DNA from: an uncultured Mycoplasmatota bacterium
GTDB lineage: Bacteria; Bacillota_I; Bacilli_A; RF39; UBA660
Assembly (NCBI GenBank): GCA_946553095.1
Contig: CAMNRN010000003.1
Span: 1 to 52,228 of the forward strand
DNA: 52,228 nucleotides
Direction: 5' to 3'
The notes beneath the pieces were generated by a model, which saw only the letters and a list, made by a program, of their open reading frames with translations, was not told where the DNA came from and searched no databases. Both the position numbers and the translations under genes were made by a program. Positions 12,686-38,850 of this stretch are shown in pieces. Each line of letters starts with the position of its first letter. The first letter of the stretch is position 1.

Positions 12686-14129
12686 TAATATTATTTATAA
12701 TATGTTATTTCAATTTTTCACAACTTTTTTGCCAATTATTACTACACCTTATTTATCAAGAACTTTAGGTGTAAATCAAAGTGGAGTTTTTTCTTTTGTA
12801 GAAACAATTGTAACAATGTTTACCATATTTGGGTCAATTGGGACTTCACTTTATGGTTGTCGAAAAGTAGCCTATGTTCGGGATGATAAGGAAAAGTTGT
12901 CACAAACAACTTATGAAATATTTTTACTTAAATTGGTTCTTTTAATCCCAATTTGTGTTATTTATATTATTTTCTTTTGTTTAACAGGGGAATATAGAAT
13001 TTATTTTTGGATAAATATGTTTACCGTTATTGGTTCAATGATAGAGATTAGTTGGTTTTTTAATGGGGTAGAAGATTTTAAATTAGTTACGATTCGAAAT
13101 TTTATAGTTAAAATTGTTTTTATTATTTGTTTATTTATATTTATTAAAAAACCAGAAGATTTAGGAAAATATGTAGCACTTGTTTGTGTAAGTAATTTCT
13201 TGGGAAATGTTTCAATGTGGTTTTGTTTAAAAGAATATTTGTATCCATTTAAGAGTTTAGGAAAATTACATCCTTTTAAACATTTGAAAGAATCTTTTGT
13301 TCTATTCATTCCTCAGTCAGCTAACTATGTTTACTCTTTATCAGATAAGGCAATGTTAGGTTATTTGACTCCCACTTTAGATAATGTTGGAATTTATGAT
13401 TATTCTTATCGAATTGTTAAAATGATAGTCAGTGTTTTGCAATCTATTGGTTATGTCATTTTATCGCGAATTGCAAATCTTTCTTCTAAAAATAATAAGG
13501 ATGAAATTGGAAAATATATTAATAAATCAATATATTTTACGTTTTTTTTAGGATTTCCGATGATGTTTGGGTTAATAGGAATTGCTAATATATTTGTGCC
13601 TTTATATTTAGGTGACGAGTTTTTGGAAGTTTCTAAAGTACTTCTTATTATAAGTCCTTTGGTGTTATTAACTTCATTTAATAGTGTTTTGGGAGTACAG
13701 TTGTTATTAGCTGTGAAAATGGATAAGCAATATACTATAGCAACTGTAATTGGAGCAATCATTAATATCTCATTAAATTTTTTGCTAATTCCTTGGTGGG
13801 GAATATATGGGGCCTGTATAACTTCACTTATATCAGAAATTATAGTGTTGATTTTTCAGCTTTATTTTGCTAAGGAGTATGTTTCTTTGAAAAAAGTTTT
13901 ATGGGAAAATCGTAAAGTTATTTTTTCTTCAGTTATAATGTTTATATTTTGTAAGTGTATAGGTTATATGAATGCTCATGTCGTTATCGTTTTATTGTGT
14001 CAAATGGCTATTTCGGTTGTAGTCTATTTTGGCTTAATATTTTTACTCAAAGATAAATTGTTTAGAGAAATTTTAAACAAAATATTAGCAATATTAAATA
14101 TTGAGTATAAGTTTAAGGAGAAGGTATAA
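12666..14129 (+). CDS. wzx: Polysaccharide flippase (Wzx/RfbX, MATE-like)
   Basis: This 487-aa, roughly 14-helix protein begins NIIYNMLFQFFTTFLPIIT and then TPYLSRTLGVNQSGVFSF, the classic N-terminus of Firmicute Wzx (RfbX/CpsJ) flippases. It would move undecaprenyl-linked repeat units across the membrane. The frame is open from 12648, but AGAAAGG at about 12651-12657 points to ATG 12666. It overlaps the polymerase-like gene by 20 bp. Its TAA shares a base with the ATG of the next glycosyltransferase. Confidence 0.92.
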   Translation: MKKSVTSNIIYNMLFQFFTTFLPIITTPYLSRTLGVNQSGVFSFVETIVTMFTIFGSIGTSLYGCRKVAYVRDDKEKLSQTTYEIFLLKLVLLIPICVIYIIFFCLTGEYRIYFWINMFTVIGSMIEISWFFNGVEDFKLVTIRNFIVKIVFIICLFIFIKKPEDLGKYVALVCVSNFLGNVSMWFCLKEYLYPFKSLGKLHPFKHLKESFVLFIPQSANYVYSLSDKAMLGYLTPTLDNVGIYDYSYRIVKMIVSVLQSIGYVILSRIANLSSKNNKDEIGKYINKSIYFTFFLGFPMMFGLIGIANIFVPLYLGDEFLEVSKVLLIISPLVLLTSFNSVLGVQLLLAVKMDKQYTIATVIGAIINISLNFLLIPWWGIYGACITSLISEIIVLIFQLYFAKEYVSLKKVLWENRKVIFSSVIMFIFCKCIGYMNAHVVIVLLCQMAISVVVYFGLIFLLKDKLFREILNKILAILNIEYKFKEKV

Positions 14130-22313: not shown

Positions 22314-23150
22314 ATGAAACGGGAACAAAAAGTTTTAGTTGTTAGTGCGGTTATAAATGTACTGGTTTTTACTTTGAAAATTATAGGAGGATTAGTTTTT
22401 TCTTCTATGACTTTAATTATGGATGGAATTTATACGATTAGTGATTTTGTGACTGATATTTTAGCAATTATTGGATCTAAGATAGGGAGGAAAAGAGCTA
22501 ATAAAAAACATCCTTTTGGTTATGGACGGTTTGAATATATTATGCAAGGTTTAATCGGTGTAATTATTTTTATGGTGGGATGTGGACTTTTGATTTATAG
22601 TTTTTTTATAGAATATCAAAAACCTAATCTTACAATTTTGTTTGTGCTTTTGTTAGTTATTTTATTTAAAGGTTTAAGTAGTAATTATTTATTTGCTAGT
22701 GGAAAGAAAATTTCAAGTGTTATTCTGATAAATTCTGCCAAAGAATCATTCTTGGATGTTTTATCTTCTTTATTTATTGTCTTTGTTGTTATATTTGGGC
22801 AATGGTTTTCTTGGCTTGATTTTGTGGGAAGCATTTGTATTTCGTTAATGATTGTTATTGAAGGTATTTCGATTGTTTTTGATAATGTTGTGCTCTTAAT
22901 TGGAGAAGATGATAATAATAAGGAAATAAAAAGTGAAATAAAGAAATTAATAGGAAAAGATAAAGATTTAGTATATGCTGATTCTTTCTTGATTAAAAAT
23001 GGGAGCTATTACCAAGTGGAAATTGAAATGGGAGTGAATGCTTCAATGTCTGTTAGAGAATTGTTACGAAAAGAATTGCGCATTAGAAAAGCTTTAAAAA
23101 ATAAAAATAAAACAATTAAATTTATTTCTTTTAATATTAGAAAAGGATAA
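22314..23150 (+). CDS. Cation diffusion facilitator family transporter
   Basis: This 278-aa protein has about six membrane helices. It has the CDF metal-site motifs DGIYTISDFVTD in helix 2 and the HPFGYGRFEYI loop. CDF proteins export divalent metals (Zn, Fe, Mn, Co) in exchange for protons. The C-terminal cytoplasmic domain, about 80 aa, is present. Metal specificity cannot be read directly. It lies 12 bp after the 21222 gene and is probably co-transcribed with it. Confidence 0.85.
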   Translation: MKREQKVLVVSAVINVLVFTLKIIGGLVFSSMTLIMDGIYTISDFVTDILAIIGSKIGRKRANKKHPFGYGRFEYIMQGLIGVIIFMVGCGLLIYSFFIEYQKPNLTILFVLLLVILFKGLSSNYLFASGKKISSVILINSAKESFLDVLSSLFIVFVVIFGQWFSWLDFVGSICISLMIVIEGISIVFDNVVLLIGEDDNNKEIKSEIKKLIGKDKDLVYADSFLIKNGSYYQVEIEMGVNASMSVRELLRKELRIRKALKNKNKTIKFISFNIRKG

Positions 23151-23165
23151 ATGTAGAGAGAAATT

Positions 23166-23182
23166 TGTCAAGCGATGTCGAA
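23166..23182 (+). promoter_or_regulatory. Spo0A-type box pair
   Basis: A consensus 0A box TGTCGAA (23176-23182) is preceded exactly 10 bp upstream by a weaker copy TGTCAAG (23166-23172). The pair lies just upstream of the -35 box of the peptide locus, in the same arrangement as at 38792-38818. The consensus TGTCGAA is established for Bacillus Spo0A; binding here is inferred. Confidence 0.55.
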
Positions 23183-23186
23183 GGGC

Positions 23187-23214
23187 TTGCAATAGGAAAA
23201 AATATCTATATAAT
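23187..23214 (+). promoter_or_regulatory. sigma-A promoter of the small-peptide RNA
   Basis: TTGCAA (23187-23192), 16 bp, then TATAAT (23209-23214). Transcription would begin near 23221, at the first bases of the panhandle stem. Confidence 0.7.
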
Positions 23215-23309
23215 AGCATCTTGTGTTACCAACTGGGGCGCCTACTTTAAATACGAGTAATTTAAACAACTTGAGTATTCAGGGGGTTTTAATGAAAGTA
23301 GGTGAAGTT

Positions 23310-23378
23310 ATGAAAAAAGATAATATTCTTTTAGTAATAATAATCTTATTGATTGTTGTAATATTACGATTAATATAG
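23310..23378 (+). CDS. Small hydrophobic peptide, possible type I toxin or sporulation peptide
   Basis: This 22-codon ORF, too short for routine gene calling, encodes a Lys-Lys-Asp-Asn start, one hydrophobic helix (ILLVIIILLIVVIL) and an Arg near the end. ATG 23310 is preceded by GAAAGTAGGTGAAG, nearly the same leader as the three surface-protein genes at 26251, 46998 and 48610, with AGG 7 bp from the ATG. An in-frame ATG at 23292 with GGGGG upstream would give 28 aa. One membrane-spanning helix with a basic end is typical of type I toxins; SpoVM-like sporulation peptides are an alternative. Confidence 0.5.
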   Translation: MKKDNILLVIIILLIVVILRLI

Positions 23379-23448
23379 AAAAACGACGCTAACCTTTTTT
23401 GGTTGAGCGTTGAAACTTAGTAGGCGCTTTCCAACTGGTAGCACTTAC
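23379..23448 (-). ncRNA. Putative antisense RNA convergent to the small-peptide mRNA
   Basis: A minus-strand RNA of about 70 nt should start near 23448, from the promoter at 23455-23482, and end at a hairpin (arms 23386-23394 and 23401-23410) followed on that strand by a T run (complement of A's at 23379-23383). It is fully complementary to the 3' part of the peptide mRNA, including the strand that pairs with the mRNA 5' end. This resembles the RatA, SR4 and Fst-RNAII antitoxin RNAs of Firmicutes. Confidence 0.5.
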
Positions 23449-23454
23449 ATTTTT

Positions 23455-23482
23455 ATTATAGCAAATTTTAGAATAAATACAA
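23455..23482 (-). promoter_or_regulatory. Minus-strand sigma-A promoter of the antisense RNA
   Basis: On the minus strand, TTGTAT (23482-23477) and TATAAT (23460-23455) are 16 bp apart, with an extended -10 TGC. Confidence 0.6.
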
Positions 23483-23554: not shown

Positions 23555-26110
23555 TTGTTAAAACTAAAAAATATAAAAAAAGATTATGAAACTGGAACAG
23601 AGAGAGTTAAAGCATTAAAAGGTATAAGTTTGGAATTTCGTGATAGCGAATTCGTTTCTATTTTAGGCCAATCTGGATGTGGAAAAACTACACTTTTGAA
23701 CATTATTGGGGGATTAGATAATTATACTTCGGGAAATTTAATTATTAGTGGAAAATCAACAAAAGATTTTAAGGATCGTGATTGGGATACTTATAGAAAT
23801 CATCGTGTAGGATTTGTTTTCCAAAGCTATAATTTAATTCCTCATCAAACAGTCTTCTCAAATGTGGAACTGGCACTAACTTTATCGGGGGTATCGAAAC
23901 AAGAACGAAGAAAAAGAGTTAGAGATGCTTTAAAACAAGTGGGACTTTTAGATCAAGCTAATAAAAAACCTAATCAAATGAGTGGGGGACAAATGCAAAG
24001 AGTTGCTATTGCAAGAGCTTTAGTTAATGATCCTGAGATATTGCTTGCAGATGAACCAACAGGAGCACTTGATTCTAAAACAAGTAGTCAAGTTATGGAT
24101 ATTTTAAAGGATATTTCTAAAGATCGTTTGATAATTATGGTTACTCATAATGCTGAATTAGCAAAAGAATATTCTTCAAGAATTATTACATTAAAAGATG
24201 GTCTTATTACTGATGATACAAATCCATTTGATTCTGAAAAAGAAAAAATAGAAGAAAATGTTGTTGAACAAAAGAAAAAGAATAAGAAAACATCGATGTC
24301 TTTTAAAACTGCTTTGTCACTTTCTTTGAACAATTTGCTTACTAAAAAGGGAAGAACTTTACTGACATCTTTTGCGGGATCAATTGGAATTATTGGAATT
24401 GCGCTTATTCTTTCTTTATCACATGGTGTACAAGAATATATCAATGGTGTTGAAGAAGAAACTTTGTCTAGTTATCCTTTAGTTATTCAAGATAATGCGA
24501 TTGAAATGGATGATTTTCTGTCTATGATGATGGGAACTAGTGAAAAAAAAGAACATGATGATGATAAAATTTATTCGAATAATGTTATGAGTGGTATTTT
24601 AAATACGATGACTGCCAAGACAAATAGTAATAATTTAAAAAGTTTTAAAGAATATATCGAGTCAACTGATGAAATTCTTCTATATACTTCAGCAATTGGT
24701 TATGGTTATGATTTAAATTTGCAAATTTATAAAGATAGTTCTTCAGAAGTTTATCAAGTAAATCCAAGCACAGTTTTAGATAGTGTCGGTATGGGAAGTG
24801 GAGATATGTCTAGTTTCTTCATGTCAACAGATTCTTTTAGTGAGTTATTTGATAATCAAGATCTTAATGAGTCAATGTTTGATTTAGTGGCAGGGTCTTG
24901 GCCTAAAAACCATAATGAAATTGTTTTAATTGTAGATGAAAATAATGAAATTATTGATTATACTTTATATACATTAGGGTTATTAGATGCTAGTGAACTT
25001 AAAAATATTTATCGAAAAATTATGAATGGCGAAGAGTTTGAAATTAAAGAAGTTAGTTATACGATTGATGAGCTTTTGAAATTAAAATTTAAATTACTTC
25101 TTAATACAGATTATTATGAAAAAGAAAATGGACTTTGGATAGATAAGAGAAATGATAAAGAATATATGTTAAAAAAACTTGCTGATGCTGAGGATATTGT
25201 TGTCAGTGGAATTATCAAACCGAGTGAAGAGTCTATTGTAACAGCTTCTGGTGGGGCTTTATATACGAAAGAATTAGTCAGTCATGTTATAAATAGAATT
25301 AATGAATCTGAGATTGTTAAAGATCAAAAGAAAAATACAGATATTAATGTTTTAACAGGACTTAAATTTAGTGAAAAACAAGAATTTAGTATTGAAGATT
25401 TGACTCCTAAGCAACAAGCCTATTTGGCTGGTTTATCACCAGAAGAATTGACCCAAGTAATTGAGACTTATACTAAACAAGCTGGGGCGACAATTAATGA
25501 TGTTTTAAGAGATTTAGGTAGTATGGATTTAGAAAATCCTTCTTCAATTTATCTTTATCCTAAGGATTTTGATAGTAAAGAAGAAATTACTAATTTAATA
25601 AATCAGTATAATACTAAAGAACAAGATGCTGGTAGAGATGAAAATGTTATTAATTTTAATGATGTTGTCGGTTCAATGATGAGTGGTGTTTCTACTATTG
25701 TCAATGTAATTAGTTATGTGCTTATGGCTTTTGTAGCAATTAGTTTAATTGTATCTAGTATCATGATTGGTATTATTACTTATATTTCAGTACTTGAAAG
25801 AACAAAGGAAATTGGTATTTTAAGAGCAATTGGGGCTAGTAAAAAAGATATTTCTCGGGTATTTAATGCAGAGACTATCATTGTCGGATTTACATCAGGA
25901 GCGATGGGAATTATTGTAACTATTCTTCTTAATATTCCTATTAATGTTGTAATTAAAAATTTGGCTAATATTTCAAATGCTTCTGTTTTACCTTGGAATG
26001 GAGCGATAATTCTTATTCTTATTAGTGTTCTTTTGACATCAATTGCTGGTTTAATGCCTGCTAAAGTAGCAAGTAAGAAAGATCCTGTTGTGGCTCTTAG
26101 AACTGAATAA
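23555..26110 (+). CDS. MacB-like ABC transporter, ATPase fused to FtsX-type permease
   Basis: This 851-aa protein has an N-terminal ATPase (residues 1-225) with Walker A GQSGCGKT (38-45), signature SGGQMQRVAIARAL, and LLADEPTGALDS. A membrane helix follows near 270-290, then a large extracytoplasmic domain (about 290-700) and three C-terminal helices with the FtsX-like block YISVLERTKEIGILRAIGASKKDI. This is the MacB/LolD-E family fused in one chain, involved in peptide or antibiotic export or in mechanotransmission. Translation starts at a TTG with AAAGGA 8 bp upstream; no ATG fits. A TATAAT box is at 23523-23528 but its -35 is poor. Confidence 0.88.
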   Translation: MLKLKNIKKDYETGTERVKALKGISLEFRDSEFVSILGQSGCGKTTLLNIIGGLDNYTSGNLIISGKSTKDFKDRDWDTYRNHRVGFVFQSYNLIPHQTVFSNVELALTLSGVSKQERRKRVRDALKQVGLLDQANKKPNQMSGGQMQRVAIARALVNDPEILLADEPTGALDSKTSSQVMDILKDISKDRLIIMVTHNAELAKEYSSRIITLKDGLITDDTNPFDSEKEKIEENVVEQKKKNKKTSMSFKTALSLSLNNLLTKKGRTLLTSFAGSIGIIGIALILSLSHGVQEYINGVEEETLSSYPLVIQDNAIEMDDFLSMMMGTSEKKEHDDDKIYSNNVMSGILNTMTAKTNSNNLKSFKEYIESTDEILLYTSAIGYGYDLNLQIYKDSSSEVYQVNPSTVLDSVGMGSGDMSSFFMSTDSFSELFDNQDLNESMFDLVAGSWPKNHNEIVLIVDENNEIIDYTLYTLGLLDASELKNIYRKIMNGEEFEIKEVSYTIDELLKLKFKLLLNTDYYEKENGLWIDKRNDKEYMLKKLADAEDIVVSGIIKPSEESIVTASGGALYTKELVSHVINRINESEIVKDQKKNTDINVLTGLKFSEKQEFSIEDLTPKQQAYLAGLSPEELTQVIETYTKQAGATINDVLRDLGSMDLENPSSIYLYPKDFDSKEEITNLINQYNTKEQDAGRDENVINFNDVVGSMMSGVSTIVNVISYVLMAFVAISLIVSSIMIGIITYISVLERTKEIGILRAIGASKKDISRVFNAETIIVGFTSGAMGIIVTILLNIPINVVIKNLANISNASVLPWNGAIILILISVLLTSIAGLMPAKVASKKDPVVALRTE

Positions 26111-38791: not shown

Positions 38792-38818
38792 TGACAAGTT
38801 TTGTCGAAGCGTGTCGAA
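38792..38818 (+). promoter_or_regulatory. Tandem Spo0A-type boxes
   Basis: Two perfect 0A boxes TGTCGAA at 38802-38808 and 38812-38818 are phased by 10 bp. A weaker TGACAAG lies at 38792-38798, and the -35 region CTTGCAA (38822-38828) continues the same 10-bp phase. Head-to-tail 0A boxes at one-turn spacing are the known binding mode of Spo0A dimers. Confidence 0.65.
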
Positions 38819-38822
38819 TCGC

Positions 38823-38850
38823 TTGCAAGTGTTTTTTTTCGTGGTAGAAT
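38823..38850 (+). promoter_or_regulatory. sigma-A promoter of a putative ncRNA
   Basis: TTGCAA (38823-38828), 16 bp, then TAGAAT (38845-38850) with an extended -10 TGG. The -35 box and spacing are identical to the promoter at 23187-23214. Confidence 0.65.

Follow-up and report, generated by a model that had tools for sequence, protein, structure and literature searches.

In an uncultured Mycoplasmatota bacterium, a cation-efflux gene (22314-23150) is followed, after a short gap, by an ABC transporter gene (23555-26110), and the content of the gap raises the question of whether a small membrane peptide, an opposing RNA and a promoter with Spo0A-type boxes could together form a toxin-antitoxin module. 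The window analysed here is a 52,228-nt stretch of DNA (assembly GCA_946553095.1, contig CAMNRN010000003.1), and the unit in the gap occupies positions 23166-23482 (Table 1). The first-pass annotation of this DNA had described it as a Spo0A-box-controlled peptide gene with convergent antisense RNA, possibly a type I toxin-antitoxin locus. All of the elements that it named were found in the window unit at the positions it gave, and the unit itself was borne out. What did not hold was its solitary character, since the unit is a member of a multicopy repeat family of about 300 bp.

Table 1. Elements of the unit in the gap, with their positions in the window
Feature	Position	Strand	Remarks
Tandem Spo0A-type boxes TGTCAAG-N3 (cga)-TGTCGAA	23166..23182	+	Conserved in copies; first box with two mismatches
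Sigma-A-type promoter TTGCAA-16-TATAAT of the predicted peptide mRNA	23187..23214	+	Conserved in copies
H0, 5' arm of the mRNA and partner of H3	23223..23248	+	Duplex energy, coevolution, compensatory changes
3' half of H0, CGCCTACTTT, complement of the Shine-Dalgarno (SD) region	23239-23248	+	
AGGGGGTTT element, upstream of the SD	23281..23289	+	Conserved in most copies
SD region AAAGTAGGTG	23295..23304	+	10-bp complement to H0, -13.8 kcal/mol
22-aa hydrophobic peptide MKKDNILLVIIILLIVVILRLI	23310..23378	+	ATG 23310, stop 23376-23378; intact in 56 of 58 copies
H1/H2 hairpin, predicted intrinsic terminator of the antisense RNA	23385..23411	-	Covariation; T run on minus strand
H3, 3' arm of the mRNA, also template for the 5' tail of the antisense RNA	23419..23444	+	Duplex energy, coevolution, compensatory changes
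Predicted antisense RNA, about 72-75 nt	23377..23448	-	From promoter and terminator positions
Antisense promoter TTGTAT-16-TATAAT	23482-23455	-	Same place in most copies

The unit and its copies

A BLAST search of the home genome found four full copies of the unit, which are 85-92% identical: the window unit, two in tandem on contig 15 and a single copy on contig 34. A 43-nt remnant lies on contig 36. The tandem pair spans positions 12941-13569 of its contig, and the upstream copy has an altered 5' arm that still pairs with the 3' arm (-32.1 kcal/mol). The copy on contig 34 and the remnant adjoin genes for long, surface-like repeat proteins (repeats like LDISNFDTSQVTNMxxMF). When 99 relatives were searched, most genomes of the same genus had one to nine matches, the better ones 67-80% identical to the window copy. 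An iterated profile collected 70 unique copies or fragments, and the 58 full-length ones form the aligned set used below. Because every element of the window unit is conserved in these 58 diverged copies, the elements are not a product of chance. Tandem arrays are frequent, with about 350 bp per unit; one genome (G019) has three tandem units, each with its own box. At the orthologous site, recognised by a downstream ABC gene alignable over its full or most of its length, the unit was missing from 18 of 18 relatives, and a related efflux gene stands in front at many of these empty sites. The copies therefore turn over.

With a covariance model of the 3' half, two further genera of the GTDB family gave strong copies (five come from G393, one from G327); in several more genera, the relatives found were weaker and rearranged. 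The five G393 copies each have a TGTCGA(A/T) box, and in three of them the arms are visible by eye where the automatic H0 finder chose a wrong spot. The ORF, the arms and the antisense promoter, any of which might have been lost from homologous loci, are all kept in the 58 copies, and the layout recurs in the two other genera. Five of the rearranged relatives, from other genera of the family (L221, L222, L223, L229 and L230), lack a visible Spo0A box. Three of them, L221, L222 and L229, have a presumed mRNA 5' end (GGATAC or GGAATAC) that can pair with a 3' arm, with a T run immediately after this arm, and the panhandle itself may serve as a terminator there. A further model hit, in another family (L214), was rejected as a tRNA cluster. 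A pattern scan of GTDB genomes gave matches only in uncultured bacterial MAGs, nearly all labelled Bacilli and one labelled 'Tenericutes'. The viral contigs, phages and plasmids searched had no match to the unit, and the plasmids had none to the 22-aa peptide either.

Peptide gene, predicted opposing RNA and pairing arms

The first-pass annotation had allowed two starts for the peptide. The 22-aa form from 23310 is conserved; the 28-aa form was rejected, as its upstream ATG is not conserved and is missing in many copies. A short frame with ATG at the conserved start is present in 56 of the 58 copies. Nearly all of these frames encode 21-29 residues with a hydrophobic core, the exceptions being a few that extend to 38-40 residues and one that is frameshifted within the core. 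Two peptide types occur, with the patterns ...LLVIIILLIVVILRLI and NDxxFxQVIIILVLI...KKRR. In type A cores, the median dN/dS is 0.18 (262 pairs), and variation is found at 4 of 16 second codon positions and at 15 of 16 third positions. Judged by these coding patterns, the peptide gene is under purifying selection. The window peptide is a single hydrophobic helix (hydropathy of the best 17-mer, 3.67). Searches of Pfam and NCBIfam gave no family above the cut-off for the peptide; type B has a weak resemblance to MgtU (E 0.07, below the cut-off). The peptide may be a toxin.

On the opposite strand, the promoter and a hairpin with a T run, both named earlier, are present, and the RNA predicted from them is about 72-75 nt long. 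The promoter keeps its place and much the same spacing in most of the other copies and is better than in shuffles, and in all copies 5-8 of the 10 nt after the hairpin are T (minus strand). The two arms of the hairpin, H1 and H2, coevolve (z -7.6), with compensatory changes at all seven tested pairs. The predicted terminator sits past the stop codon, and the RNA is complementary to the 3' UTR of the mRNA. Thus defined by promoter and terminator, the predicted antisense RNA gene is conserved across copies, and the opposing RNA probably silences the peptide gene. No terminator was identified on the plus strand of the unit. An Rfam search gave no match above the cut-off for the unit; a eukaryotic snoRNA model at E 0.006, below the cut-off, was taken as a chance match.

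The 5' and 3' ends of the predicted mRNA are complementary over 22 pairs in the window, where about 23 had been counted, with an energy of -35.3 kcal/mol (z -8.4). This pairing of H0 with H3 is present in all 58 copies, with a mean of -32.1 kcal/mol, compared with -11.5 for shuffled arms and -21.3 for arms swapped between classes. Among 20 class representatives, the two arms coevolve (z -7.7), and none of 20,000 permutations, which ignore the tree, reached the observed mean. When the partner columns were slid by one to three bases, the proportion of paired cells fell from 93% to 27-46%. In the tested helices, both partners had changed at 12 pairs, in 101 cells compared with 24 in shuffles. RNAalifold, applied to the whole unit, missed the panhandle that the duplex tests detected, because the arm lengths differ between subfamilies.

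H0 can pair with the SD as well, through its 3' half (CGCCUACUUU to AAAGUAGGUG in the window), and H0 and SD coevolve across classes, a modest effect (z -3.8, P 5e-5). The antisense tail coevolves with the SD as well (z -3.0), and ten control pairings with mid-UTR, ORF or promoter stretches all gave |z| <1.7. In one large subfamily, the H0-SD pairing is mismatched, with individual z-scores near 0. Coevolution was also found between H0 and H1 (z -3.2), without apparent reason, and between H3 and H2 (z -4.3); a local 3' hairpin of the last two may compete. No pairing partner was found for the AGGGGGTTT element. In partition-function folding, the mean probability that the SD is unpaired fell from 0.38 for the full mRNA to 0.23 when H3 was left out; removal of H3 made the SD less open in 36 of the 58 copies and more open in two. 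The panhandle had been likened to those of hok and aapA1, a likeness that is not obvious, since the predicted folding opens the SD instead of closing it. The modelled folding suggests that H3 frees the SD and that H0 is an anti-SD arm, the reverse of hok and AapA.

The boxes and Spo0A

In 51 of 57 copies, the 40 nt before the -35 element contain an exact TGTCGAA (0.2% in shuffles), and all 57 have a box there with at most one mismatch; the 0A-type box at the unit promoter is thus better than chance. The tandem boxes, with a gap of 3 bp, fall into two main registers: their distance from the -35 element downstream of them is about 4 or about 9 bp, a shift of about 5 bp. This placement resembles that at known Spo0A-activated promoters, a likeness that suggests activation by Spo0A. 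No Spo0A gene was found in the home MAG, which at first spoke against the proposed link to Spo0A; the link is nevertheless supported, as 25 of 30 genomes of the genus do have Spo0A. In the relatives examined, the neighbours of spo0A are tpiA, gpmI or, in one, secA-like genes. Because tpiA and gpmI were not found in the home MAG either, in a search run without a positive control, the absence of Spo0A is likely an assembly gap. The recognition helix of Spo0A in the genus is RVERAIRHAIEISW, which we take to be near-identical to that of Bacillus subtilis. The upstream regions of spo0A itself, pooled for genus and family, have an exact box in 27 of 33 cases (39 boxes compared with 0.53 expected).

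Across the genomes, box pairs with a 3-bp gap are strongly enriched in several and hardly occur in others; set against a reversed-pattern control, for example, G019 has 31 versus 0 and G012 has 28 versus 1. Box pairs with a 4-bp gap were not in excess over the control. The tandem boxes of G019 lie at the toxin-antitoxin-like units and upstream of genes that are dnaA-, hsp20-, miaB- and copper ATPase-like by sequence, the dnaA-like gene being on contig 18 (L251). The window has a second tandem of exact boxes, TGTCGAAgcgTGTCGAA at 38802-38828, immediately before a TTGCAA promoter and a miaB-like gene; in several congeners, too, miaB-like genes have similar boxes in front of them. No unit match was found in some of the congeners that have Spo0A (e.g., G005 and G026), and other genera include similar units without a visible box. 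Both sporulating and non-sporulating members have been predicted in related uncultured orders of Bacilli (PMC10868615). The unit is probably under direct Spo0A control. Direct control of a type I module by Spo0A is not described in the titles, abstracts and consulted parts of the full texts of open-access papers on type I toxin-antitoxin systems and Spo0A.

Proposed working and known systems

We think it rather probable that the unit belongs to a new family of type I toxin-antitoxin-like modules, chromosomal and present in multiple copies, with a Spo0A-boxed promoter and an RNA switch of the following kind. The boxed promoter would produce the mRNA for the 22-aa membrane peptide, and the convergent promoter, which has no Spo0A box, would produce an antisense RNA of about 75 nt that is complementary to the 3' UTR of the mRNA. 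In the nascent mRNA, H0 would pair with the SD and hold off translation; H3, once transcribed, would capture H0 in the panhandle and free the SD. The antisense RNA, which is complementary to H3 and can pair weakly with the SD, would capture H3, so that H0 stays on the SD, and its duplex with H3 would be a substrate for RNase III. Growing cells would thus make little peptide, through the antisense RNA. At sporulation entry, Spo0A~P would bring the mRNA into excess over the antisense RNA, and the peptide would act on the membrane. The sequences themselves show the anatomy of the unit, the constraint on its reading frame, the covarying pairings, the box and the turnover of copies, whereas the transcripts, the sequence of steps, the sense of the switch, activation by Spo0A and toxicity are inferred. 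More tentatively, we propose the full scheme as a reversed long-range logic: a 5' copy of the antitoxin sequence as anti-SD, the 3' UTR as anti-anti-SD, an antisense RNA that captures the 3' arm, and a multicopy module that is fired by Spo0A at sporulation entry.

One alternative is that the switch follows the logic of hok and AapA, in which the full-length panhandle mRNA is inert, trimming of H3 from the 3' end activates it and the antisense RNA destroys the active form. A long-distance 5'-3' interaction is the hallmark of those mRNAs (PMC6733600), and one was found in the unit. However, the fold hides the SD there, whereas loss of H3 here mostly lowers access to it, and trimming would take away the very 3' UTR that the antisense RNA can pair with; we regard this logic as unlikely. 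Somewhat less doubtful is a simpler arrangement like that of TxpA/RatA, in which the antisense RNA would act solely through a 3' UTR duplex and decay by RNase III, and panhandle and anti-SD would keep basal translation low. The convergent, 3'-overlapping layout is common to Gram-positive type I systems (PMC4147584, PMC6562991), but coevolution of H0 with both H3 and the SD would be left unexplained.

The peptide may also not be a toxin at all. Small single-helix proteins can be regulators, the faint similarity of type B to MgtU being of that kind, and the unit could encode a Spo0A-regulated, antisense-tuned membrane peptide with a housekeeping or developmental function. Yet the unit has one to nine copies per genome, among them tandem arrays, frameshifted copies and remnants, and no fixed site, features more typical of addiction-like modules, and such a function seems improbable to us, about to the same degree as the hok/AapA logic. 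Still less probable is that another regulator, not Spo0A, reads the TGTCGAA box. The sites before miaB-like, hsp20-like and copper-ATPase-like genes, which are not classic sporulation genes, would fit such a regulator; the box is present, however, in the promoters of spo0A itself and at the dnaA-like gene of G019, and the recognition helix presumably matches that of B. subtilis almost fully. A dispersed, MITE-like repeat without function, with the arms as terminal inverted repeats, would account for a unit that is scattered, intergenic and missing at orthologous sites, but the arms lie inward of the promoters, the reading frame shows purifying selection and the pairings covary, and we give this explanation hardly any credence.

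If the favoured reading, a Spo0A-wired toxin-antitoxin-like module, is confirmed, a new bacterial toxin-antitoxin gene family would be wired to the decision to form spores. A multicopy module that turns over in an uncultured genus would offer a concrete system for the roles of type I modules at developmental decisions, among which arrest, lysis of siblings or of the mother cell, and addiction are candidates to ask about. The conserved quartet of H0, SD, H3 and antisense RNA would be a precise RNA switch that can be tested by mutation.

No match in Pfam, NCBIfam or Rfam places the unit in the TxpA, BsrG or Fst families, and its resemblance to known systems is one of layout. With hok/Sok and AapA/IsoA it shares the long-distance 5'-3' pairing of the toxin mRNA. 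However, that fold hides the SD in hok and AapA mRNAs (PMC6733600) and, according to computational folding, opens it here, and the antisense RNA of the unit lies over the 3' UTR instead of the 5' leader or the ORF. The Ibs/Sib systems of Escherichia coli likewise have very short hydrophobic peptides and several dispersed and tandem copies, but Sib spans the whole ibs ORF, whereas the antisense RNA of the unit is predicted to end at about the stop codon. Fst (RNA I/RNA II, par of pAD1) also has convergent RNAs, and a repeated sequence makes its antisense RNA complementary to the SD region; in the unit, SD and H3 resemble each other, but the 5' arm repeats the 3' arm in inverted rather than direct orientation, and neither unit nor peptide has a plasmid match. 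TxpA/RatA and SprG/SprF share the convergent 3' overlap of about 75 nt and the small hydrophobic peptide. The peptide of the unit is far shorter than TxpA (59 aa), and the unit has no Rfam match; we know of no panhandle or Spo0A box in TxpA/RatA. BsrG/SR4, a type I system of B. subtilis, is convergent as well, with the antisense RNA over the 3' part of the mRNA, and binding of the antisense RNA at the 3' end both promotes decay and lengthens a stem that sequesters the SD (PMC4147584, PMC6562991). The unit differs in that it has no match to this sequence family or to phages, encodes a 22-aa peptide, shorter than BsrG, has a Spo0A-type box and is multicopy. Furthermore, the structural change in the unit would run through a 5' anti-SD arm, a copy of the antisense sequence that coevolves with the 3' arm.
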